Shown one piece after another: positions 2,814 to 63,642 of a stretch of 64,000 bases of DNA. Within the stretch, counting starts at the first letter, position 1; every line of letters begins with the position of its first letter. The DNA is from Thiohalospira halophila DSM 15071. Lineage in GTDB: Bacteria > Pseudomonadota > Gammaproteobacteria > Thiohalospirales > Thiohalospiraceae. The stretch lies in assembly GCF_900112605.1 (NCBI RefSeq), contig NZ_FOMJ01000007.1, positions 1 through 64,000 of the forward strand. Direction: 5' to 3'. The translations under genes were made by a program, and so were the position numbers. The notes beneath the pieces were generated by a model that did not search any database, had not been told where the DNA came from, and saw only the letters and a list, made by a program, of their open reading frames with translations.

Positions 2814-2849
2814 GGACGCACGGCAGGAAAAGGCAGGAAGCGGAGCGGC

Positions 2850-3470
2850 TCAGCGCTCCAGAATGGTGGCCATGGCCTCGCGCATGCCGTTGGCCACGGT
2901 CCATTCCGCCTCCCGCGACTCCACGGCCCGGCGCCACGCCTCCACCCGGCGAAGATAGGCCCAGGGCTCCTCACCGGCCCCGATATCCCCTACGTTCAGC
3001 GCCACGAAGCGGTATCCGCCGAAGTGCGGGCCCAGCTCCTCCGGCTCGCCGGCGGTGAGGTCGGTGGCCAGTACGATGATCCGGTTCCGGCAACGGGTCT
3101 CCTCGAGAAGGGTCCGGGCCCGGCGAATCGCCGCCACGCCCTCCACCGGCTCGGCCGAGGGCTCGGCCTCGAGGAGGCCATCCACCTGGCGCAGCAGGGC
3201 GCGCCGCTCCACGACCGCCACGCTGGGACGCCCGTCCAGATTCACCCCCAGGCGGTGTTCATTCCCCGTCCGGGCACCATCGATCCGTTCCACTGCGAAG
3301 GTATCCCCGGCCTCCAGGCCAAGAATCAGCCGCCGAGTGAGGCGTCTCAGGGCGGCGGTCTCCACCCCTTCGGCATCCAGAACGAGATAGACCCCCCGCG
3401 AGTCAGGAGCGGTATCCAGGCAGCCGGTGGTCACCACCACCGCGAGCAGCAATACCGCGACTGTCCTCAC
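2850..3470 (-). CDS. VWA-like lipoprotein
   Basis: 206 aa starting at GTG. The N-terminus is a lipoprotein signal (hydrophobic LLLAVVV followed by TTGC), so the mature protein should be lipid-anchored at Cys17. The body looks like a von Willebrand factor A fold: a first strand VYLVLDAEG in the MIDAS region and a later strand RIIVLATDLTAGE, although the classic DxSxS is degenerate. The start overlaps the stop of the upstream membrane-protein gene (GTGA), so it is the third gene of a coupled three-gene operon headed by an S24 autoprotease. Function unknown. Confidence 0.7.
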   Translation of the reverse strand: MRTVAVLLLAVVVTTGCLDTAPDSRGVYLVLDAEGVETAALRRLTRRLILGLEAGDTFAVERIDGARTGNEHRLGVNLDGRPSVAVVERRALLRQVDGLLEAEPSAEPVEGVAAIRRARTLLEETRCRNRIIVLATDLTAGEPEELGPHFGGYRFVALNVGDIGAGEEPWAYLRRVEAWRRAVESREAEWTVANGMREAMATILER

Positions 3471-4900
3471 GCGGTGGCACTCCCCTCGATCTGTTCACCG
3501 GACGGAGGAGCGGGGCGACGACGGTTCAGGCGCCCCTGGATCCACAGGGGCAGGAAGATCACGGCGTCGTAGAGGCGGGTCAGGACCCGCGCCAGGGCAA
3601 CCAGGGCGTTCCCCAGCCAGCGCAGGGCCAGGGCCAGCAGGGTCAGCAGCGCCTCGGCGAGGAGACCGGCGACTACCCGGGTGGCCTGAACGAACCCCTC
3701 CAGTGGGAGCAGGGCCACGGCCAGGGCCAGCGGGAAGATGAGCCCCAGGAGCATGTGGATCACGGTCGCTGCCACTCCCGGGCGGGAAGGCTGCAGCCCA
3801 CCCGCTTCGGCGGCCAGGGAGGCCACCTCGGCCTCCACCGCCTGGTGGAGATAGCCGAGGACCGCGCCCAGCAGGGCGGTAGCCACTACCAGCACCACGC
3901 CGACCACGAGCAAGCTCCTGCGGCCGCCGCCCTCCAGAGAGTCCAGCTGCGGTAACAACCGGGTGAACCGGGCCGACTCCAGGATCAGGGCGCCACCCAG
4001 GATGGCCATGCCCACCAGGGCCGCTGCGGCGACCGAGGCCGCGGACCACGGCCCCAGCTGATTCCCCGCCCCCACGACCTCCTGCAGGGGGAAGGTGGCC
4101 ACGGCCATGTGTGCCGCCGCGATGAGCACGAGGACCGCCACGGCCCCGCCATTGATGAAGAACCGGACCAGCGCCGACAGATTGAGCTGGCGGTCCATGC
4201 CGTCGCCGGCCTCCAGGAGGCCCTGATAGGAGTGCCACAGGCCGTCGATGTGCCGCCCCCGTTCCTCCAGCGTCCGGATGCGCCCGCGCACCGCATCCAG
4301 GCTGGCCTGTACCCGGCGCCAAAGCGGCAGCAGTGCCCGCAGCCGGCGCTGGCGCCGACGGAACTCCCGGCGGTGCCGGCGCAGGGCGCGATCCTCCGAA
4401 CGCTCCAGCGACTGTCGAATCCGGGCGAGCATGTCGGCAGTCGTACCGTCGCCGCGGTCGGAGACGGCGGCGACGGCCTCGGTGGCCTCCCCCCAGGCCG
4501 CCGGCAGGGGCGGCGGGGTGCTGCTGGCCTCGTATTCGCGCTCCTGTTCGGCGATGGCGTCGTTGAGTCGCCGCTGGAGCTCGGGGAAATGGCCGAACTC
4601 CCGCTCCACCAGCGCCTCCATGCCGTTGAGCGACCGCGCCAGCCGCTCCTCGGTGCGATCCACCGCCAGGGCCCGGCGGACGCGCGTATTGCGCTCCGCC
4701 AGCCCGCGCCGGGCAGCGTCCACCGCGGCGGCCAGGTGGCGCAACAGCCCCCGGAGCTGGCGGGCGACACTGAGCAGGAGCCGATGGGCCATCCGGCGGG
4801 CCAGGAAGAGCAGAACCAGCCCTGCCACCACCCCGACCAGAATGGCGCTGACGGGATAGTCGTGGATCCAGCCCAGGGTCAGGTAGGCGAGATCGCTCAC
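3467..4900 (-). CDS. Coiled-coil multi-pass membrane protein, unknown function
   Basis: 477 aa. One membrane helix lies near residues 18-36, followed by a long Arg/Glu-rich helical region (about 40-240) likely to form coiled coils in the cytoplasm or periplasm, then four or five membrane helices between about 245 and 460 and an Arg/Pro-rich tail. No catalytic motif is visible. The architecture is reminiscent of large membrane scaffolds or channel-like proteins but I could not assign a family. Its start overlaps the stop of the S24 peptidase gene (4 nt) and its stop overlaps the start of the VWA-like lipoprotein gene, implying translational coupling and joint function. Confidence 0.7.
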   Translation of the reverse strand: MSDLAYLTLGWIHDYPVSAILVGVVAGLVLLFLARRMAHRLLLSVARQLRGLLRHLAAAVDAARRGLAERNTRVRRALAVDRTEERLARSLNGMEALVEREFGHFPELQRRLNDAIAEQEREYEASSTPPPLPAAWGEATEAVAAVSDRGDGTTADMLARIRQSLERSEDRALRRHRREFRRRQRRLRALLPLWRRVQASLDAVRGRIRTLEERGRHIDGLWHSYQGLLEAGDGMDRQLNLSALVRFFINGGAVAVLVLIAAAHMAVATFPLQEVVGAGNQLGPWSAASVAAAALVGMAILGGALILESARFTRLLPQLDSLEGGGRRSLLVVGVVLVVATALLGAVLGYLHQAVEAEVASLAAEAGGLQPSRPGVAATVIHMLLGLIFPLALAVALLPLEGFVQATRVVAGLLAEALLTLLALALRWLGNALVALARVLTRLYDAVIFLPLWIQGRLNRRRPAPPSGEQIEGSATA

Positions 4901-43707: not shown

Positions 43708-44445
43708 ATGCTCGAAGCCCTTCCCCTGACCCTGACTGAATGGCTCCTGGCCAGCCTGGTGCTGGTAGGCGGGGCGATCGTGCAGGGTTCGGTGGGTTTC
43801 GGCGTGGCCCTGGTGGGGGCGCCGCTGCTCTTCCTGGTGAACCCCGCCCTGGTGCCGGCCCCCATGCTCATCGCCGGGCTCTTCCTGCCCGCCCTCATCC
43901 TGATCCGGGACCGCGCCGGCCTGGAGATGGGGCCCGTGGCCTGGGCCGTGCCGGGCTTCATGGGGGGCTCCATACTGGCCGGCGGCGTGGTGGCCGCGCT
44001 GCCCGAGGGCGGCCTGGCCCTGGTCTTCGGCAGCCTGGTCCTGCTGGCGGTGGCCCTGAGCGCCCTGGGCTGGGCCCCCGCACACCCCCGCCGCGGCCAC
44101 CTGGCGGCGGCCGGAACGCTGGCCGGCTTCATGGCCACGGCCACCTCCATCGGCGGCCCGCCCCTGGCCCTGGTCTTCCAGCACGCCTCCGGCCACCGGC
44201 TGCGGGCGACCCTGTCCGCGATCTTCGTGCCCGGCGGCCTGTTCGCGCTGCTCTCCCTGGCGGCAGTGGGCCGCTTCGGTGTAACGGAGCTGACCCTCGG
44301 CCTGTCACTGCTGCCGGCCATCTTCGCGGGCTTCTGGCTGTCCAGCTTCACCGCCCACGCCCTGGACCGGTCCTGGCTGCGCCACGCAGTGCTGGCCGTC
44401 TCTGCCGTCGCCGGGGTCGGGGCCGTGGTCCGGGCGTTCATCTGA
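43708..44445 (+). CDS. TauE/SafE (TSUP) family putative sulfite/sulfonate exporter
   Basis: 245 aa with about seven or eight hydrophobic segments, including GGAIVQGSVGFGVALVGAPLL and the later LAAAGTLAGFMATATSIGGPPLAL motif typical of TSUP. Family members export sulfite, sulfoacetate or related anions. It fits the sulfur-oxidation theme but transport substrate is inferred. Last gene before the AT-rich island. Confidence 0.9.
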   Translation: MLEALPLTLTEWLLASLVLVGGAIVQGSVGFGVALVGAPLLFLVNPALVPAPMLIAGLFLPALILIRDRAGLEMGPVAWAVPGFMGGSILAGGVVAALPEGGLALVFGSLVLLAVALSALGWAPAHPRRGHLAAAGTLAGFMATATSIGGPPLALVFQHASGHRLRATLSAIFVPGGLFALLSLAAVGRFGVTELTLGLSLLPAIFAGFWLSSFTAHALDRSWLRHAVLAVSAVAGVGAVVRAFI

Positions 44446-44482
44446 GCCGGGCGCCTGCCCCAAGTTCCGGAAACAACGGTAA

Positions 44483-44510
44483 AACGAGGCCCTGCGAACG
44501 AGGCCCTGCG
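44483..44510. repeat. 14-bp tandem duplication
   Basis: AACGAGGCCCTGCG occurs twice head to tail without a spacer. It lies 38 nt after the TSUP stop codon, at the left edge of the AT-rich island. Confidence 0.85.
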
Positions 44511-44784
44511 CAAGAAGGTATACACGGCTTCCCGCTTGCTGCATAAGGATTCCATCGCTACCGTGGCTGAACGTCCGGTCCGCAAGGAGCGCTTCCGCCG
44601 TGGACACTACCAGCCCCCGCATCCCCCTAGCGCCGCCTCATCGCCATGATGAGGGAGCTAACGGCAAGCCTACTGCGCACCACCTTCTCCAACGTGGCAT
44701 CCAAGGCCAACTACCTCTTCATCGGCGACTTCGCCTGGGAGTCATGGGCGTTCGCCCTAAATTGAACGTCCTCGAGGCTGCAGC

Positions 44785-44800
44785 CATCCCGAACGGGATG
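44785..44800. repeat. 16-nt palindrome
   Basis: CATCCCG-AA-CGGGATG is a perfect palindrome except for the 2-nt centre. CTGCA and GCAG flank it with extra partial symmetry. It could be a protein-binding site; too tight to be a hairpin loop. Confidence 0.6.
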
Positions 44801-45028
44801 CAGGCAGATTCTAGGTTCGCGAGCAATGCCCTAAAACGCGCGGCCTCTGGAGAGAACGCTAATTGGGAGATCGGGCAATCCCAAGGGTAATAACGAAATC
44901 GAGCGCACGACTGCGGGTGCGAATTAAGGGTCCAAGAACCCAACCACCAACGTCTCCGTCATCGCTGACCGAATCCGAGCTAAATAGGTGGGGAGTCCTG
45001 AAGACTGAATAAGCGTTCTGGAAGGCTA

Positions 45029-45058
45029 ACATTTGAGGCTGGCCTGATTCCCAAATGT
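45029..45058 (+). promoter_or_regulatory. Hairpin in the leader of the PHP-ATPase gene
   Basis: ACATTTG and CAAATGT form a perfect 7-bp outer stem with an inner AGG/CCT stem in the loop. It is 102 nt upstream of the ATG at 45161. It may be a 5' UTR control element or an mRNA end of whatever precedes it. Confidence 0.35.
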
Positions 45059-45160
45059 GTACAGAAGCCCTATCGAAGATTCCGGCCAGGGGTGCCTTTG
45101 AACCGAAACCTCACCACCCCACAAAACCATTCTTTCGCTAATAACTCACAGGCTTTAATA

Positions 45161-47893
45161 ATGCAAGAAACTGAGTACAAATTCGGATCGGAATGGATTA
45201 GGTGCGATCTTCATGTTCACACTCCGGAGTCCTTGGTAAACACTAACTACGGGGGAGCCGGGAACGAGCCTTGGGAAGAGTTTATCGCCGATCTAGAAAA
45301 CCTACCCGAAGATTTTAAACTCCTAGGAATTAATGATTATTTGTTTCTAGATGGGTATAAAAAAGTACAAGAATACAAAAAACAAGGGAGACTTAAAAAT
45401 ATAGACTCCATCATCCCTGTCATAGAATTGAGACTAGCTCAGTTTGCATCTTCCAGCGGGAAGTGGCAAGAAGTTAATTACCACGTAGTTTTCTCAGACG
45501 AACTGTCAGCGGAAGATATTGAGACTCAGTTCATTGGCGGCCTAATGGCTGATTTCCAGCTTTCTGATTCGTATGCTTATTTGAAGGAGCGCTTTTCGGC
45601 GGCCCCTACTTATAAATCCCTAACAGAACTCGGAAAGTTAATTATTGATGCCGCCCCAGAAGATAAAAGAAAAGATTTCTCTGCACCATTAATAGAGGGA
45701 TTCAATAATTTAGTTTTTGAAAGAAACGTCATTGAAAAACTACTCCAGAAATCTGTATTCAACAACAAAACATTGACAGCAATAGGAAAAACTGAATGGG
45801 ATAAATTACAATGGAACGATCATAGCATCGCCTCAAAAAAACACACCATACAGTCTGTCGATTTTTTATTCGTCTCCTCCGAAAATGCGTCTGCGGCAAC
45901 TAATGCGTGGCAAAAGTTAAAAGACCAGAACGTCAATGACAGGTTGATAGATTGCAGTGATTCTCACTATCACTCTTGGAGCTCTAATAAAGACCGATTA
46001 GGAAACTCTTTTTCTTGGATACGAGCCAAGCCTTCTTTTGAGGGAATACGGCAGGCTCTTTATGAGTACCCGGCCCGTGTTCGATTCTCGGACGCAAAAC
46101 CTAATGAACCAGTTCAAAGGCTAGACAATTTCAAAGCATCCCTTCCAAATGACATTTACTTAAAAGAAGAAAAGTTTTGCTTTAGTGGTGATTATGAATT
46201 CAACTTCAACCCCTGCTTTACGTGCATAATTGGAGGCAGAGGCTCAGGCAAGAGCACACTACTCCAAATGGTAGCGAAAAGTTATGGGGCTTCTATAACT
46301 AACGATATTTGGGATCAAACTTTAGGATCGTTGTCCTCGGATGGAGGCCCCTTACAAGTCACAGATTTTTTTGAAACGAAGGGCACTGCCTATTCATCAG
46401 AGATAGAATATATACACCAAAATGCTGTTGAGGCCTTTGCGCAAGACACATCAAAATTAAAAACCGCGATCAATAATAGGGTTAAAAAGAGGGTCGATAA
46501 AACCGAATACGAGGAAATCAAGGAAGACTTGAAAAGCAGCCACGAATTGAGTAATGAGGAAATCAATAAAGTCAAAGAAACGATTTCTCTGCAAAAGGAG
46601 AAGGACTCACTCTCTTCGCAGATTAAAGAAAAAAGGTCTCTAATTGAAACTGTCTCGGACGAAAAGTATAGAGAAAAGCAGAACAAACTCGATAAATCCC
46701 AACAACACGAAAAGGAGTTAAAAAAGGCGTACGATAAAACGTCTGACGCTCTGTCCGGGCTTAAAGAATGTCAAGATCGCCTAGATGAAGTTACGTCTTT
46801 GGAAAATAATCCTCTGGCCTCTCCAGCGGAAGCGGCAAAGAAATATCTAGAAGAGGCCATTTCGGAGCTATCAAAGAAGGAACCTTGGCAACGATCAAAC
46901 GAGCAATTAAAGGCTGCCAAGGATGACGCTACACACGCTCAGCATGAAATCCAGAAAATTTTTCAGGATAAGGGGTTGGATCCTGAATCAGTAACGGATG
47001 TTCAAACTGCAAGTTCAGAAATCGGCCCTTTAGAAGACCGCCTTTCTGAAATTGACGGTATTCTGGGGAGTTTCAATGAAGAAGACGACCCTAAGAGGTT
47101 ATGCGCTGAAAACGCGAAACGCTTGGAATGTTATTTAGATTCCGTTTTGGAGTCGATGGTTAAAGAATTGGCAAGCTCTTCAGACCAGGTTTCTGACCTT
47201 CAGATTGTTAGCGAGAGGGCGCGCTCTAAGGCTCATGAAGATTGGGTGCAATGGTTAATCGAGGAAATCAGGAAATCCAACAAAGAAGAGAGAGTTCAAG
47301 AAGCGAAAATCACAGAGATTTTTGCAACCATCCCCCTAAAGGATGATCTGGTTTGGAGCGATATAGATTCCGCTTTGACATCCTCCTCTGCCCAAAAAGC
47401 TTCAACTCAAATAAGAGAGTTTCTAAAGGATCCATCCGTATTCAAGATCGCCCAAATCAAGTGGAACTCTCTTCAAACGGATGTTGAAAACTATAGAAGT
47501 TATCGACTTTTATATAATGGCCGTAATATTGAAGATTTATCTTTTGGCCAAAGATGTACAGCTGTTCTAGTTTTTTTGTTAAAAATGGGAAACACTCCTG
47601 TCATTATTGATGAACCTGAGGCCCACTTGGATTCATTGCTAATTGCCAAATACTTAGTGGAATTAATCAAGGAAAAGAAGCAATACAGACAGATTATTTT
47701 TGCAACGCATAATGCTAACTTTGTTATAAACGGGGATGCCGATTTAATCCACCACCTTGAGGTCGATGAAAGTGGAACGACTAAAGTTGAATCCTTTTCT
47801 ATCGAAGACACTGAGAATCGACAAAGGCTTTTAGGATTGGAGGGAGGAGATAGGGCTTTTCGCTTGAGAGCCACCCGCTACCACACTTATTGA
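45161..47893 (+). CDS. PHP-domain + SMC/RecN-like AAA ATPase (TrlF-like), candidate defence protein
   Basis: 910 aa. An N-terminal PHP phosphoesterase domain (about 1-330) keeps metal ligands His18 and His20 in CDLHVHTPES and the late DCSDSHYHSW motif. An ABC/SMC-like ATPase follows: Walker A GGRGSGKST (358-366), a long charged coiled coil (about 430-720), signature LSFGQ (793-797) and Walker B IIDEPEAHLDS with Asp817-Glu818. Resembles the TrlF family of standalone PHP-ATPases often seen in defence islands. The gene is far AT-richer than every neighbour, with A/T-ending codons, so it is horizontally acquired. A GTG at 45092 in frame was rejected as the start since it adds a non-conserved tail; the ATG at 45161 has only a weak AGG. 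Confidence 0.85.
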   Translation: MQETEYKFGSEWIRCDLHVHTPESLVNTNYGGAGNEPWEEFIADLENLPEDFKLLGINDYLFLDGYKKVQEYKKQGRLKNIDSIIPVIELRLAQFASSSGKWQEVNYHVVFSDELSAEDIETQFIGGLMADFQLSDSYAYLKERFSAAPTYKSLTELGKLIIDAAPEDKRKDFSAPLIEGFNNLVFERNVIEKLLQKSVFNNKTLTAIGKTEWDKLQWNDHSIASKKHTIQSVDFLFVSSENASAATNAWQKLKDQNVNDRLIDCSDSHYHSWSSNKDRLGNSFSWIRAKPSFEGIRQALYEYPARVRFSDAKPNEPVQRLDNFKASLPNDIYLKEEKFCFSGDYEFNFNPCFTCIIGGRGSGKSTLLQMVAKSYGASITNDIWDQTLGSLSSDGGPLQVTDFFETKGTAYSSEIEYIHQNAVEAFAQDTSKLKTAINNRVKKRVDKTEYEEIKEDLKSSHELSNEEINKVKETISLQKEKDSLSSQIKEKRSLIETVSDEKYREKQNKLDKSQQHEKELKKAYDKTSDALSGLKECQDRLDEVTSLENNPLASPAEAAKKYLEEAISELSKKEPWQRSNEQLKAAKDDATHAQHEIQKIFQDKGLDPESVTDVQTASSEIGPLEDRLSEIDGILGSFNEEDDPKRLCAENAKRLECYLDSVLESMVKELASSSDQVSDLQIVSERARSKAHEDWVQWLIEEIRKSNKEERVQEAKITEIFATIPLKDDLVWSDIDSALTSSSAQKASTQIREFLKDPSVFKIAQIKWNSLQTDVENYRSYRLLYNGRNIEDLSFGQRCTAVLVFLLKMGNTPVIIDEPEAHLDSLLIAKYLVELIKEKKQYRQIIFATHNANFVINGDADLIHHLEVDESGTTKVESFSIEDTENRQRLLGLEGGDRAFRLRATRYHTY

Positions 47894-48153
47894 AAGCAGC
47901 CGGCGGTACCCACTCCGGTTATATCTAGTTGCCGGAGTTGGTTCTGGAAGACAAAAGAGTGAAGCAAATTATCCCGGAAAACGAGGGCCAGTTTTTATTT
48001 TGGCTTATGTGTAAAGCCTTACTCTTGCGCGTTAGAGCATCGACAAATAATTCTTTAGAAAGCCGGGCCTTGAGGTTACGCGCATCAAAGACTAGGTTTT
48101 TCTTGTGAGCGCGCCGCGGACGACGTTCCAGTTGCCAAAAAGGAGGGAAGAAT
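47894..48153. other. 260-nt gap downstream of the PHP-ATPase gene
   Basis: Intermediate GC and AT-rich patches; no ORF worth calling. It contains the hairpin at 47912-47938 and carries the strong AGGAGG RBS of the lipase gene. It marks the right boundary of the AT-rich island. Confidence 0.5.
47912..47938 (+). terminator. Hairpin after the PHP-ATPase gene
   Basis: ACTCCGG and CCGGAGT pair perfectly over 7 bp around a 13-nt loop, beginning 18 nt after the stop. No U-run, so a weak or Rho-assisted terminator. Confidence 0.35.
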
Positions 48154-49206
48154 ATGGCCAGCTATTTCAGAGAGAAGAGATTACTGACTTCTCCGCCCGT
48201 GGCCCGGGCGGCCTACTCGGATCGGACCGCCTGGATCATGGCGGAGCTGTCACGGCTCGTGTACGAGCCGTTGCCGGCAGAGGTCTCAATCACCCGGCTG
48301 GTGCAAGAGATCAAGGAATCCGTGGAGACCGGGGAGGCGGAAGACACCGTTACAGCTCTGGTCAGAAAGGCCGTGGCGGCAGAGCAGGAAACCACAACGG
48401 AGCTGGCCTCGATCCTGCGACAAGCCGATTTCGAGCTTCTGGAGAGCTTCGATGAAGGGGGAACCCAGGCCTTCCTGGCGCGGCTCAATGCGAACGGCGC
48501 CGCCGGTAGCATGCTAATTCTGGCCTTCCGGGGAACGGAGCTAGAAGCCGCTGATATCTTTGCTGATATCAAGGCGAACCTGCGCTCGGCCCCGGGCGGA
48601 GGGCGCGTGCATCGGGGTTTCCTTGAGGCCTTTCAACGTGTTGAGGAGCCCATCAGGCAGGCTCTGGAACAGCACGCCGGGCCACCCCTCTACATTACCG
48701 GCCACTCCCTGGGCGGCGCCCTGGCCACACTCGCCACCCGGTATCTGGAGAAGGACAGCACTGGTGCCTGCTATACCTTCGGCGGCCCCAGGGTTGGTGA
48801 CCGGGAACTCTTTGCCGGGATCAAAACGCCGGTGTATCGGGTGGTAAACGCCGCGGACGGGGTGCCAAGGGTGCCTTTCGGCTATGGCTTCAACATTATT
48901 TCAGGGGCCATTGGCCTGCTCCCGGGAAGTATCTCCAAGCGAATCTCCAGCTTTATGGAGAACTTCAAGGGCTATACCCACTATGGCTATCAGGTATTCC
49001 TCACCGCGCCCCCGAACCAGCCTGATGAGAAAGGCATCCCGTTCAAGAAGCTGCGGGTGGAGCATAGCCCGAATTTCTTCCGGAAGGCGCGCCTGGTTCT
49101 CGCCCGCTGGATAAAGTCCTGGGGCGCGGCGGCGGCCCAAGACCACGGCTCGGGCGAATACGTCGAGAAGCTCCAGGCCCACGCCCTACGCCGGAATCCG
49201 GAATAG
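48154..49206 (+). CDS. Class 3 lipase-family alpha/beta hydrolase
   Basis: 350 aa. Nucleophile Ser185 in ITGHSLGGALATLATRYL, Asp likely in VVNAADGVPRVPFGYG and a His further on in the HYGYQVF or terminal HGSGEY region. The oxyanion-hole region is LAFRGTE. No signal peptide: MASYFREKRLLTSPPVARAAYSD. It has lower GC than the flanking housekeeping genes but not the extreme AT bias of the PHP-ATPase. GGAGGGAAG precedes the ATG. Lipases with this fold occur as effectors or as abortive-infection components, but here only proximity to the island supports this. Confidence 0.85.
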   Translation: MASYFREKRLLTSPPVARAAYSDRTAWIMAELSRLVYEPLPAEVSITRLVQEIKESVETGEAEDTVTALVRKAVAAEQETTTELASILRQADFELLESFDEGGTQAFLARLNANGAAGSMLILAFRGTELEAADIFADIKANLRSAPGGGRVHRGFLEAFQRVEEPIRQALEQHAGPPLYITGHSLGGALATLATRYLEKDSTGACYTFGGPRVGDRELFAGIKTPVYRVVNAADGVPRVPFGYGFNIISGAIGLLPGSISKRISSFMENFKGYTHYGYQVFLTAPPNQPDEKGIPFKKLRVEHSPNFFRKARLVLARWIKSWGAAAAQDHGSGEYVEKLQAHALRRNPE

Positions 49207-55595: not shown

Positions 55596-56630
55596 TCACT
55601 CGCCGGGGTCCGGGTCGATGAGGTCCAGGGGGTTCATCTGCCGCTGGCTCTTGGCGCGGAGGTAGGCCTCCGTCGTCGACCGGCTCCGGTGTCCGGCCAG
55701 GGCTTGCGCGTCTTCTCCGCGCTCATGGTAATCCGTCAGGCTCTTGGCGCGTAGGTCGTGGAAGGTGAAGCTCTCGGCGATGTCTTCGGCGCGCATAGCT
55801 CGTTTGATGGTGTTCCTCCAGGTCGAGCCAAAGCCGCCAGAGGTGTACGGCTGGCCATGGGACGAGGTCAGGATGTAGACGCTGGGGACGGTTCGCCTGT
55901 TCAGGTTCTTGGCGTGCTCCAGGGCGCTGGCAAGGGCCGGCGTTATGCGAAGGACGAGGGGCCGGCCGCCCTTCTTGGGCTGTATGCGCAGGCCGTCCTC
56001 GGTGACGTCGCTCCAGCGCAGGGCGATCAGTTCGCTCTTCCGCCGAGCCGTGATGTAGGCCAGATCCATGGCCAACGCCATCGACGCCGATGCGTGACTC
56101 CGAACCGCCCGGAACTCCGCGTCTGTGACGTATCGCTCTCGAGGTTTTTCCGGGAAGCTCCGGACGTCCCTGCATGGGTTTCGGTCAGCCAGCCCCCGCC
56201 GCAAGGCGTAGGCGTACACCGAGGATAGGACGGACTTGTCCCGGTTGGCTGCTGAGTGGCTGAAGTGTTCGTCGAGGTATCGGGCGACGTGGCGGGGCTG
56301 GATCTCCTGGATGGGCATGTGGCCGAAGACCTGCTCCAGGCGGCGCAGGCACACGTCGTAGGAGGACTGGGTGTTGGCGGCCTTCTCAACCAGGACCTCG
56401 GCCCTGTACTGGGCGATGGTCGCGGCCACGCTCCCGGGTGGCACCTCCCCCATCTCGGCCTCGAGGCGCGCATACTCGGCCAGGGCCTCTTCCCAGGTGG
56501 TGCCCAGACGAATCCACCGGCGCCCCTTACCGCCCCGGCCGGAGGTCAGGTAGCGATAGGCTCCGTTTTTCCAGTGCATCCGGCGCGGTAGCCCCGCGCC
56601 GTTCGTCCTTTGTCGCCCCATACCCTCCAT
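55596..56630 (-). CDS. Phage tyrosine recombinase (integrase)
   Basis: 344 aa. Core-binding helices in the N-terminal half and a catalytic domain with Arg in ITARRKSELIALRW, HDLR at 291-294 and the nucleophile Tyr323 in TTEAYLR; GHRS provides the second His/Arg region. It catalyses site-specific integration and excision. The start at 56630 lies 1 nt after the DUF4224 stop, so the two are coupled. An ATG at 56621 has GGAGG too close to serve well. Confidence 0.93.
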   Translation of the reverse strand: MEGMGRQRTNGAGLPRRMHWKNGAYRYLTSGRGGKGRRWIRLGTTWEEALAEYARLEAEMGEVPPGSVAATIAQYRAEVLVEKAANTQSSYDVCLRRLEQVFGHMPIQEIQPRHVARYLDEHFSHSAANRDKSVLSSVYAYALRRGLADRNPCRDVRSFPEKPRERYVTDAEFRAVRSHASASMALAMDLAYITARRKSELIALRWSDVTEDGLRIQPKKGGRPLVLRITPALASALEHAKNLNRRTVPSVYILTSSHGQPYTSGGFGSTWRNTIKRAMRAEDIAESFTFHDLRAKSLTDYHERGEDAQALAGHRSRSTTEAYLRAKSQRQMNPLDLIDPDPGE

Positions 56631-56631
56631 G

Positions 56632-56853
56632 TTAGCCGGTCTTCCTCAGCCTGGCGAAGTCCGGCTCGGGACGAGCGGAGGACCCGCTGCCCCCTGCAAG
56701 CATCTGCTCGGCGTGGGCCCGACTGACGCGCGGGCGGCCGACGCGGTCCTCGACGTAGGTCCACCCGTTGCGCTCCAGCCATCCCCGCTGATACGCCGGC
56801 AGCTGGTAGCCAGTCAGCTCCTGGAGCTCATCGGCGGTCAGGCAGAGGCTCAC
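56632..56853 (-). CDS. DUF4224 phage protein
   Basis: 73 aa. CLTADELQELTGYQLPAYQRGWLERNGW and VGRPRVSRAHAEQML are the family features. DUF4224 proteins are short and sit next to phage integrases; an excisionase-like role is proposed but unproven. Starts with GTG, overlapping the exonuclease stop (4 nt). Confidence 0.8.
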   Translation of the reverse strand: MSLCLTADELQELTGYQLPAYQRGWLERNGWTYVEDRVGRPRVSRAHAEQMLAGGSGSSARPEPDFARLRKTG

Positions 56854-57419
56854 GATTCGGCTTCCTCCAGGTCGTGGGGGTCGGCGCTCCGGATCCAGGT
56901 GTCGCGCTCCAGGTGCCGGTAGACGTCGCGCAGGATCCGGGCATCGTCCAGGGCATCGTGGCGCTGGTCGCGCTGGCCCCGGTCGACGCCGTAGTAGAGG
57001 GCGAGGTTGTCCAGGCTGTAGATCCGCAGGCCCTCGGCCTGCTCTTCGAGATCAGGCAGGACCCGGCGGGCCAGGGTCTGGGTGCAGATGACCCCGGAGA
57101 TCGCTGGGGGCCGCTCGTCAGCCCGGTCGAACTCGGTCAGCAGGTGGACGATGTCGAAGGGGGCGTTGTGGGCGATGAGCGTGGCCCCGTCCAGGGCCTC
57201 CCGGATGTCGACGGCCACGTCGAGCCAGCGCGGGAGCCCTCGCAGCTGTTCGCGGCTGAGGCCGTGTACCGCGTAGGCGCCGTCGTCGCTCTCGCGCTCG
57301 GGGTCCACGGTCCACAGGCTCTCGCCGCCGGCGCCGTCGACGGCGCCCAGCTGGATGATCCGGTGGCCGGCGCTTATTCGGAAGCCGGTGGTCTCGGTGT
57401 CGATGAAGATCGGGTGCAT
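56850..57419 (-). CDS. DEDDh 3'-5' exonuclease (DnaQ-like)
   Basis: 189 aa. DEDDh motifs: FIDTETTGF (Asp, Glu), IAHNAPFDIVHL (Asp) and QRHDALDDARIL (His, Asp). Probably proofreads or processes DNA ends during phage replication. Start at 57419 has GGGAG 7 nt upstream; an ATG at 57431 has a poorer spacing. Next to the SSB gene, so both act on replicating phage DNA. Confidence 0.88.
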   Translation of the reverse strand: MHPIFIDTETTGFRISAGHRIIQLGAVDGAGGESLWTVDPERESDDGAYAVHGLSREQLRGLPRWLDVAVDIREALDGATLIAHNAPFDIVHLLTEFDRADERPPAISGVICTQTLARRVLPDLEEQAEGLRIYSLDNLALYYGVDRGQRDQRHDALDDARILRDVYRHLERDTWIRSADPHDLEEAES

Positions 57420-57434
57420 GAGGTCTCCCATATC

Positions 57435-57893
57435 CTAGAAGGGGATGTCGTCGTCCATGTGGTCGAAGCCGTTGCCGGTCTGCTGGCCGGCGGGCTGCCC
57501 CTGACCCTGCTGGCCGCCGGCGGTCTGGCCGCCCTGGTCACCGCCCTGCCCTCCCCGGCTGTCGAGCATCTGCATCTCGTTGGCCACCACTTCGGTGGTG
57601 TAGCGGTCCGAGCCGTCCTGGGCCTGCCACTTGCGGGTCTGCAGCTTGCCCTCGATGTAGACCTTGGATCCCTTCTTCAGGTACTGGGCGGCCACTTCGC
57701 CCAGCCGGCCGAAAAGGGATACCCGGTGCCACTCGGTGCGCTCCTGGTTCTCGCCGGTCTGCTTGTCCTTCCACTGCTCACTGGTGGCCAGGCGCAGGTT
57801 GGCGACGGCGGTGCCGTTCTGGGTGTAGCGGACCTCCGGGTCGGCGCCGAGGTTGCCGATGAGGATGACTTTGTTCACTCCGCGGGATGCCAT
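57435..57893 (-). CDS. ssb: Single-stranded DNA-binding protein
   Basis: 152 aa. OB-fold [50 protein letters not shown] and [12 protein letters not shown] (shortened), Gln/Gly-rich linker and the acidic tip MDDDIPF that recruits partners. This is a phage-borne copy. Start ATG 57893. Confidence 0.95.
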
Positions 57894-57921
57894 AACTTTT
57901 ACTCCGCTCTGCTTTTTCTGT

Positions 57922-58398
57922 TCATTCCTCGAGGTACTCCCGCGGGTCGACCTCGATCTCGACCTCCGAGGGCTCGCAGGGCCAGACCGGATACTGCTCG
58001 CCGACCATGGCCACGAGTTCCCGGGCCTTATCCCAGATCGCCGGGTCGGCCTGGTTGGCCTGCATCTCCTCGTCACCAATGCTCGGGTCGGGGCCGTACT
58101 CCTCACCAAGCCACTCGTAGAGGTGGGTCAGCATGAAATCGGCCATCCGCTGTTCGCTCGGGAGGGCCATCGGGACATACCCCACGACCGTCACCGAGGT
58201 CGGTGCATCGGATGGGTCCACCTGTTCATGCTCACCAGCCCGGAATGCCCGCTCCACCGCCTCCTGGGGATCGGCCGGAAGCGTCTCGGCTGCGTCCTCA
58301 TAACCCTTAACCTCCCACCCCTTGATGGGGCGTCCACGGTAGTCTTTCGCCTGCTTATTGCTGGCGCCGCCGTGGTTTATCTGATCACTGTTCTCCAT
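57922..58398 (-). CDS. Hypothetical phage protein, acidic
   Basis: 158 aa, strongly acidic in its second half (DPREYLEE tail) with no recognisable domain. Lies 28 nt upstream of ssb in the same direction. Confidence 0.55.
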
Positions 58399-58407
58399 GG
58401 GTCTCTC

Positions 58408-59007
58408 CTATACCGCGAGGGCGAGCTGTACCGGCTCGCTGGTGTGTTGTGCGTGGCGTCCACGGTTTCGGCTGTCCGGCGGGATGGCGCCGCCCACTAC
58501 CCGCTCCGCCCACCGGCGGACGGTGGCCACGTTTGCCAGGCGCAGGCGCTGCACCTGGGCCAGCAGGGTGGCGGCGCCGGCGGCCAGGGCCTCGCGCCGG
58601 GTGGTCCAGCGCGGGCCGGTCAGCCGGTCGTCGATGGGGCCGGCATTGATCCAGGTGCCGTCCTGGAGCTGGACCACGCCGATCATCGGCGGCGGGGCGC
58701 GGAAGGTCCGCTCCTCGGTGGACCGGATCATGGCGTCCATCATGGTGTCGCTGGCGCGCTGCTCCGCCGGCGTGCCTCCCCGGCCGAGCTGCCAGGTGTG
58801 CCAGGTCTCCCGCCGGACGGCGCGGCGGTGGGCCATCCACATCACGTCCCATGCGTGGTAGTTGCAGTGCCAGTCGCCACCCGAAAAGAAGATCCGGCCG
58901 CCGTCATACTGGCCGGAGACCTCCAGGCCGTAGACGCCGATCAGCTGGTGGTATCCGCCGGGGCCCGGGGCGACCCGGGCGGGGACGGGGCAGCGGTCGA
59001 GCTTCAC
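58408..59007 (-). CDS. Hypothetical phage protein
   Basis: 199 aa, starting at GTG that overlaps the stop of the small upstream gene (GTGA). A central region DGTWINAGPIDDRLTGPRWTTRREALAAG may be a small DNA-binding or cofactor fold, but no family is recognisable. It lies between the short helical protein and the acidic protein. Confidence 0.55.
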   Translation of the reverse strand: MKLDRCPVPARVAPGPGGYHQLIGVYGLEVSGQYDGGRIFFSGGDWHCNYHAWDVMWMAHRRAVRRETWHTWQLGRGGTPAEQRASDTMMDAMIRSTEERTFRAPPPMIGVVQLQDGTWINAGPIDDRLTGPRWTTRREALAAGAATLLAQVQRLRLANVATVRRWAERVVGGAIPPDSRNRGRHAQHTSEPVQLALAV

Positions 59008-59246
59008 GATTTCGGCTCCGGGAGCGAGCGCTGGTTGCCGGCCAGGAATGCGCTGCCGCTGTCCTGGCCGGTGGCCTCGAGGTATTCCACCTCGGCCTTG
59101 GCGCTGTCGATGAGCCGCGCGGCGGTGTCGTTGATCGACTTGGCCTTGCGGGTCTCGCGGTCCAGCGTCTCGGTGTCGTCGGCGTCCCGCAGGCGCTCCA
59201 GGCTCTCGAATAGGTGATCGCGGAGATCGTCCATTTTGTTCTTCAC
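59004..59246 (-). CDS. Small helical phage protein
   Basis: 80 aa, mostly charged helix (LRDHLFESLERLRDADD) with a Gly-containing tail. Overlaps the HNH gene stop at its start. No family recognised. Confidence 0.55.
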   Translation of the reverse strand: MKNKMDDLRDHLFESLERLRDADDTETLDRETRKAKSINDTAARLIDSAKAEVEYLEATGQDSGSAFLAGNQRSLPEPKS

Positions 59247-59842
59247 ACTGCCTCCTCGGCTTCTCGTATGCGGCGCTTGAGCTGGCCGCGCAGGATGATG
59301 GCGTGGGCCAGCGCGTGCGGGTATCGGGTCCAGATCCCGTTGCGGCGGACGTTATCCGTCTTGCTGATGCACTCGAGGTTCGCCGGGTCCAGGTTGTCTC
59401 GGTCGCCGTCGCGGAAGATGACGATGTGGCCCTCGGGTATGGGGCCGTTGTGCTCTTCCCAGACAATCCGATGGATGTAGCGCCAGTTGAACCTGGCCGG
59501 CCGGTCACGGCGGTCGCTGATCTTCCGCTTCCAGTAGCCGTCCGGGTCGCGGACCTCGGTGCCGACGGGGTGCCAGGTGTGCGGCGTCTGCCCGGGCTGG
59601 AAGCGGGTCTCGGCGCTCCGGCCGCCCGCGATCCAGCGCTGGCCCTTGTTCCAGGGCTTGTGCCCCGCGGGGAAGCGGCCGGCGTTCATGTCCGGATCCT
59701 TGGTCAGGCCCATCTTCCGGGCCTTCTGGCCGATGGCCCGCGCCGGCCGACCCAGGAGGCCGGCGATCACGGTGTTCGGGGTGTCGTGGTACATCACCTC
59801 GAGCCAGGATTCCTCGATCTCGGTCCAGCGGCGGTAGCTCAC
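59243..59842 (-). CDS. HNH endonuclease (phage)
   Basis: 199 aa. An N-terminal helix-turn-helix-like segment (TVIAGLLGRPARAIGQKARKMGL) and an HNH_3-type core with WRYIHRIVWEEHNGPIP, the His-Asp of HIVIFRDGDRDNLDPANLE and the closing NVRRNGIWTRY. GTG start overlaps the upstream stop. Could be a homing-type nuclease or a terminase-associated nuclease. Confidence 0.85.
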   Translation of the reverse strand: MSYRRWTEIEESWLEVMYHDTPNTVIAGLLGRPARAIGQKARKMGLTKDPDMNAGRFPAGHKPWNKGQRWIAGGRSAETRFQPGQTPHTWHPVGTEVRDPDGYWKRKISDRRDRPARFNWRYIHRIVWEEHNGPIPEGHIVIFRDGDRDNLDPANLECISKTDNVRRNGIWTRYPHALAHAIILRGQLKRRIREAEEAV

Positions 59843-60228
59843 GGCTCGTCGGCCTCCAGCGCCCACTTGTCGTCGGTGTACGCGGCGGCCGGGGCGGACC
59901 AGCCGCGGCCGATCTGGCGGTATTCAATCGGGCGGCCGTGGCGGGTGGCGTGGTCGATGCCTTGCTGCATTCCCTCGGTTACGCCGAGGTCGGTGTAGAC
60001 GACGGTGGCGTCTGCGACCTCGCCCCAGACGAGGCCGGCGGCGATGCCGGTGGCGCGCTGCGCGTGGTCCCGGTCGTCCAGTACGTCGGTCAGCAGGCCG
60101 TGGCTGGCGTAGGGGCTGTCGCCCTGGGCGATGCAGTCCTCTTTGGCCGCCCGCAGGTACTCGGCGTGGAGCTGGAGCTGTTCGTCGGTGTCGGCCGCGT
60201 GGGGGCTTTCGATGATTACGCGCCTCAC
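59839..60228 (-). CDS. DUF7768 (deoxyribosyltransferase-like) phage protein
   Basis: 129 aa. VRRVIIESPHAADTDEQL, YLRAAKEDCIAQGDSPYASHGLL, VLDDRDHAQR and VVYTDLGVTEGM match the nucleoside 2-deoxyribosyltransferase-like family often encoded by phages. GTG start (coupled to the stop of the Rz1-like gene). Confidence 0.75.
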   Translation of the reverse strand: MRRVIIESPHAADTDEQLQLHAEYLRAAKEDCIAQGDSPYASHGLLTDVLDDRDHAQRATGIAAGLVWGEVADATVVYTDLGVTEGMQQGIDHATRHGRPIEYRQIGRGWSAPAAAYTDDKWALEADEP

Positions 60229-60491
60229 TCCTCGCCCTCCTCTTCCTCGGCCCACTCGCGCAGCTCGCGGCGGTCGGCGTTGTCGGCGCGGATGACCTGG
60301 CGCATGGTCAGCGCCCAGGACAGGAGCGCGCCGTTGGTGCTACCCATCAGGGCCGGCACCGGAATCGTCTCCATCAGCTCCGCCGGCGGCGTCACCCGCT
60401 GGGTCTCGGTCTGCGTCACCACTTCCGAGCCCCCGCAGCTTGTCAGCAAGGGCATCAGGCAGAGGGCGGCGGCTCCACTGGTCCACCTCAT
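60225..60491 (-). CDS. Rz1-like outer-membrane spanin lipoprotein
   Basis: 88 aa. A lipoprotein signal with LLTSC near residue 19 and a Pro/acidic body. It overlaps the Rz-like gene in a different frame (60340-60491), the classical nested Rz/Rz1 arrangement. O-spanins link the outer membrane to Rz to fuse membranes at lysis. Confidence 0.85.
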   Translation of the reverse strand: MRWTSGAAALCLMPLLTSCGGSEVVTQTETQRVTPPAELMETIPVPALMGSTNGALLSWALTMRQVIRADNADRRELREWAEEEEGEE

Positions 60492-60771
60492 CGTCGGTCT
60501 CCTGCAGTTGGTCGATCTCGGCCCGGAGCTGCCGGGCTTCGTTCTCGATGGCGAGGCGGCGCCGGCGGGCGTCGGCCACGGCTTGCTGGGCGCGCTCGCG
60601 CTCGGCCTGGAGCTGTTCCAGGGCCTCCCGGGTACGCTCGGCGGCGTTCTGGTGGGCCTGGACTCGTTTCTCGGCCACGGCCAGGTCCTCGGCGGTGGCC
60701 TGGTACTGCCACCAGAGGACGGCCGCGACCAGGGCGAGGACGCCGGCGGCGCCCAGGGCCATGCGGCTCAT
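60340..60771 (-). CDS. Rz-like inner-membrane spanin
   Basis: 143 aa. An N-terminal membrane helix (about 5-22, LGAAGVLALVAAVLWWQYQ) and a long periplasmic coiled coil (about 25-90). The Rz1 gene is embedded within its C-terminal part in another frame. Starts with ATG that overlaps the holin-like stop (ATGA). Confidence 0.85.
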   Translation of the reverse strand: MSRMALGAAGVLALVAAVLWWQYQATAEDLAVAEKRVQAHQNAAERTREALEQLQAERERAQQAVADARRRRLAIENEARQLRAEIDQLQETDDEVDQWSRRPLPDALADKLRGLGSGDADRDPAGDAAGGADGDDSGAGPDG

Positions 60772-61073
60772 GCCTCGCCCCCAACGGCCCGGCGGGCGCG
60801 AGCGGTGACCATCTCCAGCGCGGAGTCGGCCAGGTAGCCGGCGCCGAATGCGGTCAGGAGGGAGAGCTGCCCGGTCTCCGCCAGGACGCCGTAGGCGGCG
60901 AGCGCTCCGCCGGCGGCGAGCGCGGTCTTGTACGGCCGCTGGGAGAGCCAGCCGGCCAGGGTCTGGCCGTCGCCGCTCTCTCGGGCTTCGACGACCCGGG
61001 CGAGGATGTGGCAGGCGAGGCCGACCAGGAGCATGGCGAGCGCGGGGGCGTGGGTGGTCAGGAGTTCCGGCAT
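60768..61073 (-). CDS. Candidate phage holin
   Basis: 101 aa with two or three hydrophobic segments (LAMLLVGLACHILARVV, TALAAGGALAAYGVL, LLTAFGAGYLADSALEMV) and a charged tail, directly upstream of the spanin genes. No sequence match to a known holin family, so the call rests on size, topology and position. Confidence 0.6.
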   Translation of the reverse strand: MPELLTTHAPALAMLLVGLACHILARVVEARESGDGQTLAGWLSQRPYKTALAAGGALAAYGVLAETGQLSLLTAFGAGYLADSALEMVTARARRAVGGEA

Positions 61074-61402
61074 GCCTGCGCCTCCCCCGCCTTGGCGGCG
61101 ATGTTGATCCACAAGAGAGAGAGCAGGTAAGCCACGCCGGCCACCGTCCAGCCCGCAACGGCAAGAGTTGCGCCGGCGCCGATGGATGCCGGGAAATAGA
61201 CCCACCTGTGCGCTTTTTCTTCTTCCTTGGGCGGCTTCTCGGCAAAGGAAAAGCCAGAGAGGATCATCATCGGAATCAGCGCCCAGACAATTACCGCTGC
61301 AATATTCCCGGCCCATTCCTGGCCGCCCCAGTAGCTCGCACCGACGAGGCCGGCGATAGATCCGTTGATCGCTATATTGGTGAGGGTTGCTTTCAGCTTC
61401 AT
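61058..61402 (-). CDS. Phage membrane protein, unknown (possible holin or antiholin)
   Basis: 114 aa with three or four hydrophobic segments (GSIAGLVGASYWGG, GNIAAVIVWALIPMMILSGFSF, GAGATLAVAGWTVAGVAYLLSLL) and a charged KPPKEEEKAH loop. It overlaps the 3' neighbour. The upstream 5' region is duplicated ahead of another gene at 61577-61655. Confidence 0.55.
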   Translation of the reverse strand: MKLKATLTNIAINGSIAGLVGASYWGGQEWAGNIAAVIVWALIPMMILSGFSFAEKPPKEEEKAHRWVYFPASIGAGATLAVAGWTVAGVAYLLSLLWINIAAKAGEAQACRNS

Positions 61403-61437
61403 GCCTTCCGTCCTTATTTCCCGATTCTGATGGGGTG
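61362..61437. repeat. Duplicated leader, copy 1 (pairs with 61577-61655)
   Basis: Around the start of the 114-aa membrane protein gene, the minus strand reads IRIxK-stop, GGACGGAAGG, ATG and then M-x-x-K-x-T-L-x-N. The same arrangement is repeated about 215 nt upstream. Local identity is high over about 70 nt. Confidence 0.8.
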
Positions 61438-61451
61438 TTCGGTCCGTTCAC

Positions 61452-61619
61452 TCACTGCGTCCCTCCTGTTCGGTCTGTAACGGTCATCGGCGGGATCCGT
61501 ACAACGGCCCCGCACCAGGGGCAGGTCACCGCTACCCCGCCCGGCACGTCGCGCCAGACCATGCAAGTCGTGCAGCGACCGTTGACGGATAGATTGATGA
61601 GGGTGCCTTTCACGCTCAT
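61452..61619 (-). CDS. 55-aa zinc-ribbon-like phage protein
   Basis: 55 residues, too short to be obvious: MSVKGTLINLSVNG, then CTTC and CPWC motifs 15 residues apart that would bind zinc, and a Thr-rich tail. It begins with the duplicated leader (RBS GGAAGG) and its stop overlaps a tiny 13-codon frame ending in IRIGK. Confidence 0.65.
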   Translation of the reverse strand: MSVKGTLINLSVNGRCTTCMVWRDVPGGVAVTCPWCGAVVRIPPMTVTDRTGGTQ

Positions 61620-61655
61620 TCCTTCCGTCCTTATTTCCGGATTCTGATAAGGTTT
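61577..61655. repeat. Duplicated leader, copy 2 (pairs with 61362-61437)
   Basis: Contains the end of the 52-aa upstream gene (IRIRK-stop), the GGACGGAAGG ribosome site and the start of the zinc-ribbon gene. The mirror copy carries the end of another frame (IRIGK-stop) and the start of the membrane protein gene. Confidence 0.8.
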
Positions 61656-61789
61656 CCGCAGCCATCCGTGTAAACTGGCCCGTTAACCATTTCCCATTCC
61701 CTGAACCTCACCCCGTATAAAAACCAGATCACCGTGGAAGTCGCCGGGTCCAGGCGGACCGAAGTGGTGGTTTTGCTGGGAATGTTCAT
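61631..61789 (-). CDS. Small phage protein, 52 aa
   Basis: 52 aa starting at an ATG with GAGGAAGTGGC upstream; the sequence MNIPSKTTTSVRLDPATS continues to a CGNLIRIRK end. No family recognised. It overlaps the 106-aa gene upstream by 4 nt and its 3' end belongs to the duplicated leader. Confidence 0.55.
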   Translation of the reverse strand: MNIPSKTTTSVRLDPATSTVIWFLYGVRFREWEMVNGPVYTDGCGNLIRIRK

Positions 61790-62106
61790 GCCACTTCCTC
61801 GTCTCGGCCCCAGCTCACGTCGGTGCCGCATTCCTCGGGGGGAGTCTCCGCCTCAACCAATGGCCGCCCGCAGAAGGGGCAGTGGCGCATACCCATTTCC
61901 GTGGGGCGGGCATCTTCCGTCCAGAACTCGCGCCCGCAGGACGTGCCGAATATCAGTTCGGCCCCCTCCTGCCAGGAGCAGAAAACCGCCCGCTCCTCTT
62001 CCGGAAGCGTCCCGTCATGAACCCGCTGTGCCAGTTCGCGGGCACCTGCCCAGCGCAGGAGCTGCATCGCCGGGTGCCCGATTAGGTTGTGAACAGGCCA
62101 GTTCAT
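61786..62106 (-). CDS. Phage protein with C-terminal CPFCGRPL zinc-ribbon motif
   Basis: 106 aa. An N-terminal hydrophobic-aromatic region (NWPVHNLIGHPAMQLL) and a late HCPFCGRPLVEA motif plus an earlier Cys in FGTSCGREFW, suggesting a zinc ribbon. Unknown function. Overlaps the lysozyme-like gene by 4 nt. Confidence 0.6.
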   Translation of the reverse strand: MNWPVHNLIGHPAMQLLRWAGARELAQRVHDGTLPEEERAVFCSWQEGAELIFGTSCGREFWTEDARPTEMGMRHCPFCGRPLVEAETPPEECGTDVSWGRDEEVA

Positions 62107-62606
62107 GCCGTCACCTCGTCTTCGCCGGAGTGCAGGGCCTCGGTGACGGCCTCGATGTAGTGCTCGACGGTGCCGGCGCCCTGGTCGGTGTTGTAGTGGC
62201 GCTTCCAGTAGTCCGCCTGGGCCTCCAGGTCGCCGGAGAGCGGCAGGGGCTCGGAGACGCGGTAGTAGTGGACGCGGGCCATTGCGGCGGCGTAGAAAAG
62301 GTTACCGGTGAGCGCTCCTCCTGCTTTAGCGAGCGTCCGCCGGCCCTCCAGCCCGTCAATTGCTAACTCCAGTTCGCCACGGTATCCCAGGAAGTTGTCC
62401 CAGATGTCCCTCTCGGTCGCCGGCTCCATCTGCCACAGCCCCAGCGCGGGGCCACCGCCGAGCTGCTGGAGGTACTGCAAACCGCTCTCGGTGATGGCGG
62501 TGCCGAGCAGCAGCTCCTCGGCTTCTTCGGTGTGCGGGATTTCGGGGTCCAGGTGGGCCAGCGTGGGCCGGATCACCAGATCCATGAGTTGGTCGGGGCT
62601 CAGCAT
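62103..62606 (-). CDS. Lysozyme-like phage protein (candidate endolysin or tail lysozyme)
   Basis: 167 aa. GTAITESGLQ with candidate catalytic Glu40, followed by GPALGLWQMEPATERDIWDNFLGYR, resembles the goose-lysozyme/SLT arrangement (ES ... GL.Q). It has no signal peptide, so it would need the nearby holin-like proteins. Close to spanins and holin candidates, forming a lysis cassette. The start overlaps the methyltransferase stop by 7 nt. Confidence 0.65.
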   Translation of the reverse strand: MLSPDQLMDLVIRPTLAHLDPEIPHTEEAEELLLGTAITESGLQYLQQLGGGPALGLWQMEPATERDIWDNFLGYRGELELAIDGLEGRRTLAKAGGALTGNLFYAAAMARVHYYRVSEPLPLSGDLEAQADYWKRHYNTDQGAGTVEHYIEAVTEALHSGEDEVTA

Positions 62607-63124
62607 GCCGCCTCCTTCTGGGTGCGTTTGTCGGGGATCGCGATTACGCCGCCGGCCGGGGCCTCTACGCGCCACGGGGTCCAGATCGGCACGATGGAGC
62701 CCTTGGGGTTGCCCTCCTGGGGCTGGCCGTTGGCGTCCAGGAATGCGATCCGGCGGGTGGTGATGTAGATGGCGCTCGCGTTGGGGTGGACCGCGTTCTG
62801 ATACCACTCGGTGCTGCGGTCGTCCGGCAGCAGGCCGATGACGATGGAGCCGTGGGAGGCCTCATGGGCGGCCTTACGGCACCAGGCGCCGGGGTCGCTG
62901 TAGGGCGGGTTCATCCAGCAGACCTCGTTCTTCGGCCACGGCCGCGCCAGGGCGTCGTCCTCGGCCGTCCAGTAGTTCGGCGCCTTGGCGGTCTCGGGTT
63001 CGGCGCAGACGTCCAGCGTCGGCTCCACGCCCAGCTCGGTGCAGATGGCGTGGTAGACCGGCCAGGGCGTGCCGCGGCGGTCGCGCTCCTCCTTGGGGGT
63101 GCGGCTTCGGGCGTAGGCGTCCAT
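62600..63124 (-). CDS. Phage DNA N-6-adenine methyltransferase
   Basis: 174 aa. NPPYS in EVCWMNPPYSDPGAWC is the Dam-type catalytic motif (DPPY/NPPY), with GSIVIGLLPDDRSTEWY downstream. The short single-domain layout matches PF05869-like phage Dam enzymes. Possibly protects phage DNA from host restriction. Overlaps its neighbours by 1-7 nt. Confidence 0.88.
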   Translation of the reverse strand: MDAYARSRTPKEERDRRGTPWPVYHAICTELGVEPTLDVCAEPETAKAPNYWTAEDDALARPWPKNEVCWMNPPYSDPGAWCRKAAHEASHGSIVIGLLPDDRSTEWYQNAVHPNASAIYITTRRIAFLDANGQPQEGNPKGSIVPIWTPWRVEAPAGGVIAIPDKRTQKEAAC

Positions 63125-63642
63125 CAGGAAACCCCTTTCATAAATACGAGCCAGTGGGTCTTCCCGGCGCGGCCCGCCTGCTGGCCGAACAGCGGCTTTC
63201 CGGGGGCGAGCGGCAGGACCTCACGTAGCGGCACCTGGGTTTCGTTCCACTTGAAGACGAGCGTCCCTTCGGGCTTGAGGACTCGCCAGCACTCAGAGAA
63301 GCCCTGGCGGAGGTCCGATCGCCAGTCATCGCCGAGCTTCCCGTAACGGGCCGCCATCCAGCTGCGGTCGCCGGCCCGCTCCAGGTGCGGCGGGTCGAAG
63401 GCGACCAGCGGGAACGACGCATCGGCGTACGGGAGCGCCCGGAAGTCGAGCTCCACGTCCGGCTCGATCTTCAGGACCCGGCGACCGTCCTCGCGGCCGT
63501 GGGAGCGGTCGGTTACCTCCCGGGTCTCCGTGCGGCAGTCACCGAAGACGGCGGCCGGGTTTGTCGGGTCGAACCACATGGAGCGCGGCCCACAGCAGGC
63601 GTCCAGGATGCGCGGCCCGGAGGCCTCGTTCGGGGCGTTCAT
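63124..63642 (-). CDS. Phage class I SAM-dependent methyltransferase
   Basis: 172 aa. LDACCGPRSMWFDPTNP begins a SAM-binding region (a motif I variant), then VAFDPPHLERAG is a DPPH catalytic motif and GFSECWRVLKPEGTLVFKW the following strand. Likely DNA or nucleotide substrate, not determined. Its ATG overlaps the stop of the next small gene (ATGA). Confidence 0.8.
   Translation of the reverse strand: MNAPNEASGPRILDACCGPRSMWFDPTNPAAVFGDCRTETREVTDRSHGREDGRRVLKIEPDVELDFRALPYADASFPLVAFDPPHLERAGDRSWMAARYGKLGDDWRSDLRQGFSECWRVLKPEGTLVFKWNETQVPLREVLPLAPGKPLFGQQAGRAGKTHWLVFMKGVS

Follow-up and report, generated by a model that had tools for sequence, protein, structure and literature searches.

Why does the GC-rich chromosome of Thiohalospira halophila DSM 15071 hold a single AT-rich gene between a permease and a lipase gene, and what might the product of that gene do? 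Along the window, the whole 64,000-nucleotide stretch analysed here, GC stands at about 0.70, falls to 0.41 and then recovers. The island has one long open reading frame, a trlF gene at 45161-47893 on the + strand that encodes 910 amino acids from an ATG; a GTG at 45092 would extend the product to 933 amino acids, and relatives begin near the ATG at 45161. With a GC of 0.411 and a GC3 of 0.407, the gene lies far below gene-sized windows drawn from 104 kb of the same contig (mean 0.704, sd 0.025, z = -11.6), among which the lowest equal-sized window outside the island still has a GC of 0.612. The abrupt shift in composition and the single 910-residue gene, both proposed in an earlier sequence-only reading, are thus borne out. 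We consider it quite probable that the island was acquired horizontally and constitutes a single-gene system of the antiviral type within the TrlF/Ppl superfamily, encoding an ATPase-gated PHP nuclease whose role in defence we infer.

The extent of the island needs some refinement. The interval 44446-48153 initially assigned to it does span the entire intergenic gap, but the AT-rich core is smaller: the best two-breakpoint segmentation by maximum likelihood puts it at about 44850..48190 (no strand), give or take tens of bases, with a GC of 0.42 inside against 0.68 outside within 43.0-49.5 kb, and with intermediate values of 0.57-0.64 across 44446-44850. Sequence scans of the non-coding upstream part of the insert (44446..45160, + strand) revealed no recognisable gene, and searches with this DNA matched neither plasmids nor any other part of the host genome; a shorter non-coding part (47894..48153, + strand) follows trlF. 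A perfect 14-bp tandem duplication, AACGAGGCCCTGCG, lies at 44483-44510, close to the left edge of the insert and a short distance to the right of the permease gene. Neither an integrase nor a transposase was found at the island borders, no flanking direct or inverted repeat was convincing enough as a transposon end, and the window contains no tRNA gene. About 7 kb to the right, 55596-63642 on the - strand looks like a prophage or integrative element, with a tyrosine integrase, an RNase_T exonuclease, an SSB, and HNH-like and methylase-like reading frames.

The flanking genes allow the site to be compared with one that lacks the insert. On the left is a TauE/SafE permease gene (43708..44445, + strand; Pfam PF01925) and on the right a class 3 lipase gene (48154..49206, + strand; Pfam PF01764), 3708 bp apart in the window. 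In a single genome of another family of the same class (G245, locus L243), the same two genes are adjacent, 259 bp apart with nothing between them; the permease gene (2752-3487) shares 86% nucleotide and 86% protein identity with that of the window, and the lipase gene (3749-4801) shares 78% and 82%, respectively. No alignment was obtained between the intergenic DNA of L243 and the insert, which leaves the insertion junctions approximate. The host genus is represented in the comparison by one genome, and the 11 other genomes of the host family carry neither trlF nor the two flanking genes and so provide no empty site of their own. The permease-lipase pair (L243 2749-4801; window 43708-49206) is common to different families and missing from the other genomes of the host's own, and was probably itself transferred. 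Together, the empty site and the composition support insertion of trlF in the lineage of the window, as had been suspected; loss in G245 is less probable, though the comparison involves one genome, unaligned intergenic DNA and a patchily distributed flanking pair.

The encoded protein matches the NCBIfam TrlF model NF045780 along its full length (432 bits against a cut-off of 350; residues 9-908 on model positions 2-944). AlphaFold2 models the whole protein with a mean pLDDT of 87, and SMC, Rad50 and JetC heads take the top Foldseek ranks; when residues 1-313 are modelled separately (pLDDT 89), the matches above a probability of 0.9 are exclusively PHP phosphoesterases, among them BAD_1165, RNase AM and the PHP domains of bacterial replicative polymerases. 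These models support an N-terminal PHP phosphoesterase (residues about 8-306; 45182..46078, + strand) joined to an SMC/Rad50-like ATPase head (residues about 345-906; 46193..47878, + strand) with coiled coils at about 430-670, in agreement with the TrlF-like plan first read from the letters, and the motifs named then all sit at the residues given for them. The PHP domain has the ligand-type residues H18, H20, D59, E89, H108, D267 and H269, with H18 and H20 in CDLHVHT and with S266-D267-S268-H269 as the last motif. In the ATPase, Walker A (G358-S365, GGRGSGKS), LSFGQ (793-797), D817-E818, a Q-loop-like Gln420 and His850 make up the sequence motifs required for ATP binding and hydrolysis. Two features had been overlooked: PHP motif II reads D59-Y60, with a tyrosine where histidine is usual, and the Walker B glutamate marks a distinct clade. 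With Tyr60 in place of the motif II histidine, the PHP site may be one metal ligand short, so that it need not act as a nuclease.

The Walker B sequence DEPEAHLD is shared by the window protein, a protein of a Burkholderia pyrrocinia plasmid (L057) and an IMG/VR protein (L087), while the remaining full-length relatives with a recognised Walker B motif have DQPE or DQPD. A scan of genome contigs with the window protein as a single sequence found nothing, whereas an alignment-based scan did recover relatives: a profile of the three DE proteins yielded 64 loci in named genomes, a recruited sample rather than a census, in which most strong matches are DE-type, as the search pattern favours. When the Walker B columns were removed before tree building, the 41 DE-type proteins still grouped as a single clade, with an SH-aLRT support of 96 that comes from a quick method and carries moderate weight. 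Position 818 is Glu in 41/41 DE-type proteins and Gln in all 44 of the other typed TrlF/Ppl proteins, a contrast by which the groups were defined, so that it is their monophyly that stands as an independent result. The clade covers many phyla; the window protein falls within a supported set of eight that includes proteins from Planctomycetota, Verrucomicrobiota, Nitrospirota and Colwellia as well as the Burkholderia plasmid copy. Conservation in the PHP domain is high (H18 and H20 in 39 of 41 proteins, D59 in 38, E89 in 40, D267 in 41, H269 in 40), and a motif II tyrosine in 32/41 is the norm of the clade. An Asp-Gln Walker B, which is an observed trait of typed family members and no curated criterion, is absent from the window protein; judged by its sequence, E818 marks a variant, not an exclusion from the TrlF family, in which the protein stands out by DEPEAHLD in place of DQPE, by its own clade and by about 15-22% identity to aligned non-DE members. 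Separately, in a TrlF subgroup (L041, L042, L044, L045, L046, L047 and L050) the PHP site is degenerate, HxH having become QxN and DxH having been lost, which suggests a non-catalytic PHP domain there. The TrlF family is an established one. Its DE-type clade, and the association of that clade with restriction-modification (R-M) genes set out below, appear undescribed in the open-access papers and named databases searched.

DE-type relatives are enriched beside defence genes. R-M genes lie no more than two genes from trlF in about 10/42 DE-type loci (L167, L170, L171, L184, L185, L186, L187, L190 and L193, and probably L188, where the gene beside trlF groups with the R-M gene next to trlF in L187), several of them in apparent operons. 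In L170 the order is hsdM-hsdS-trlF-hsdR and the junctions measure -4 and +1 bp; in L193 a type III methylase gene overlaps trlF by 20 bp; and in L186 and L190 gaps of 3-6 bp separate trlF from R-M genes. Among near neighbours, Pfam counts reach 7 for N6_Mtase, 7 for ResIII, 5 for Eco57I, 4 for Methylase_S and 3 for HSDR_N, against at most two members per family and no R-M family among the 25 listed for a far control of genes 5-7 positions away. PADLOC families matched at E 1e-10 numbered 328 near and 35 far, a ratio that overstates the effect because the R-M models overlap heavily; one REase_I match and a few other defence matches came from the far control. The proximity to defence genes predicted for proteins of this kind accordingly holds for the relatives but not for the window copy, whose neighbours are TauE, the lipase and katG, with no defence or R-M gene next to it. 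We also observed, in L193 (7867-9480), an AlbA_2-like protein, recognised by eye, between trlF and the type III restriction gene, which recalls the TrlG partner; in L202 (9941-12971), a DE-type trlF is followed by a small gene and then by a PDC-S73/short-Argonaute-like protein, and in L180, too, trlF precedes a small gene resembling that one.

This neighbourhood raises the possibility of a PrrC/RloC-like guard coupled to restriction, silenced by the R-M complex, released upon restriction inhibition or DNA damage, and then cutting tRNA or other RNA. The type I or III R-M operons of L170, L193, L186 and L190 fit such a role, as do three strong N6-methylase genes elsewhere in the host genome and the presence of the ribonuclease RNase AM among the closest PHP folds; there is also precedent in two ABC/Rad50-like ATPases, of which PrrC is invariably and RloC seldom tied to R-M loci (PMC2610378). 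The likeness, an ATPase of this type fused to a nuclease inside R-M loci, is a resemblance in how the systems work and entails no membership by sequence: PrrC and RloC have an anticodon nuclease domain, whereas Pfam and NCBIfam scans found no anticodon nuclease or HEPN domain in the window protein, whose nuclease part is of the PHP type. Moreover, DNA is the substrate of Ppl, the relative that has been studied, and most DE-type loci, the window copy included, have no R-M neighbour, so that we hold this alternative to be unlikely. We regard as similarly unlikely a version that spans the clade, according to which DE-type TrlF proteins would be R-M-associated guards and the PHP equivalent of PrrC: hydrolysis-gated nucleases that sense the state of the restriction enzyme and fire when a phage inhibits restriction. 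The copy in the window would then work in trans with the R-M systems of the host.

Rather than a defence gene at work, the island might be a neutral passenger, a recent arrival that is intact yet unexpressed or catalytically dead in this host. Promoter and terminator scans of the island gave nothing above chance level, which leaves expression of trlF in the host uncertain, and the strong compositional mismatch, Tyr60 and the lack of defence neighbours could be read in the same direction. Against this, the 910-codon frame is fully open, no ATPase motif is lost, most of the PHP ligand-type residues are kept, and Tyr60, as the clade norm, represents no local loss; we think the passenger explanation improbable. 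Mobility is itself general in these genes: in all 36 DE-type loci with at least 5 kb of flank, trlF has a lower GC than its flanks, by 0.01 to 0.21, and near-copies occur in different phyla (L170/L171, L178/L205). TrlF/Ppl relatives further occur in 1095 plasmid records, 804 of them predicted to be conjugative, and on IMG/VR contigs, and the distribution across the class is patchy, with 19/369 genomes over the TrlF cut-off.

A closer equivalence to Ppl seems still more doubtful than these. A review describes the antiphage protein Ppl, the product of one gene, as a PHP exonuclease that carries an NTPase domain, degrades ssDNA in the 3'-5' direction and is switched on by nucleotide depletion and by 3' ends (PMC12904381), and proteins called ppl by PADLOC have been associated with phage resistance in Staphylococcus epidermidis in a genome-wide association study (PMC13152194); an orthologue would be expected to work likewise, as an exonuclease licensed by NTP depletion. 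The domain plan is identical, and the homology runs full-length: in an end-to-end profile alignment, residues 7-893 pair with the Ppl of E. coli (plasmid copy L082; probability 100, E 2e-56), likewise a mobile single gene. Yet the window protein scores 124 bits on the Ppl model NF042955, whose cut-off is 1000, belongs to a separate clade and shares about 17% identity with Ppl, whose Walker B is Asp-Gln and whose motif II is of the DH type, where the window protein has glutamate and tyrosine. As Ppl itself reaches 477 bits on the TrlF model, it belongs within a broad TrlF family. The Spaf_1101 family ATPase (NF045781) is related in its ATPase half, and here too the window protein scores below the cut-off (152 bits against 475). 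That the gene serves stress or temperature-dependent growth, as the name TrlF might imply, is very improbable: trlG and trlR do accompany trlF in the temperature restriction operon of Photorhabdus, but the phenotype there is carried by trlG, trlF had no mutations and its role was left open (PMC7554251), and the window copy is solitary, with neither a trlG nor a trlR neighbour. The family name originates there as 'temperature restriction locus F' (PMC7554251), so we reject a reading of it as a reference to tRNA; a tRNA target, earlier suggested alongside phage DNA, gains no support here.

We therefore return to a self-contained, ATPase-gated PHP nuclease as the favoured account of the island. 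Such a protein would dimerise via its ATPase heads, and the ATPase would read the state of nucleic acid, for example DNA ends, or DNA that is stalled, restricted or damaged; the ATP cycle would then license the PHP domain to cut nucleic acid and so block phage or plasmid propagation. Because the DE-type clade keeps the catalytic Walker B glutamate, we would expect its members to be gated by the hydrolysis and turnover of ATP, and not simply by whether a nucleotide is bound. In this host, trlF could work by itself or together with putative hsd-type systems encoded elsewhere in the genome, and since many relatives have trlF as a component of R-M operons, it might plausibly back up restriction as a second line. 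Ppl is the sole mechanistically studied member of the superfamily that we found; if hydrolysis-driven gating holds true for DE-type proteins, the Gln/Glu difference in Walker B may separate two gating modes, and the DE-type clade raises the question of whether R-M loci harbour a PHP-type second line of defence.
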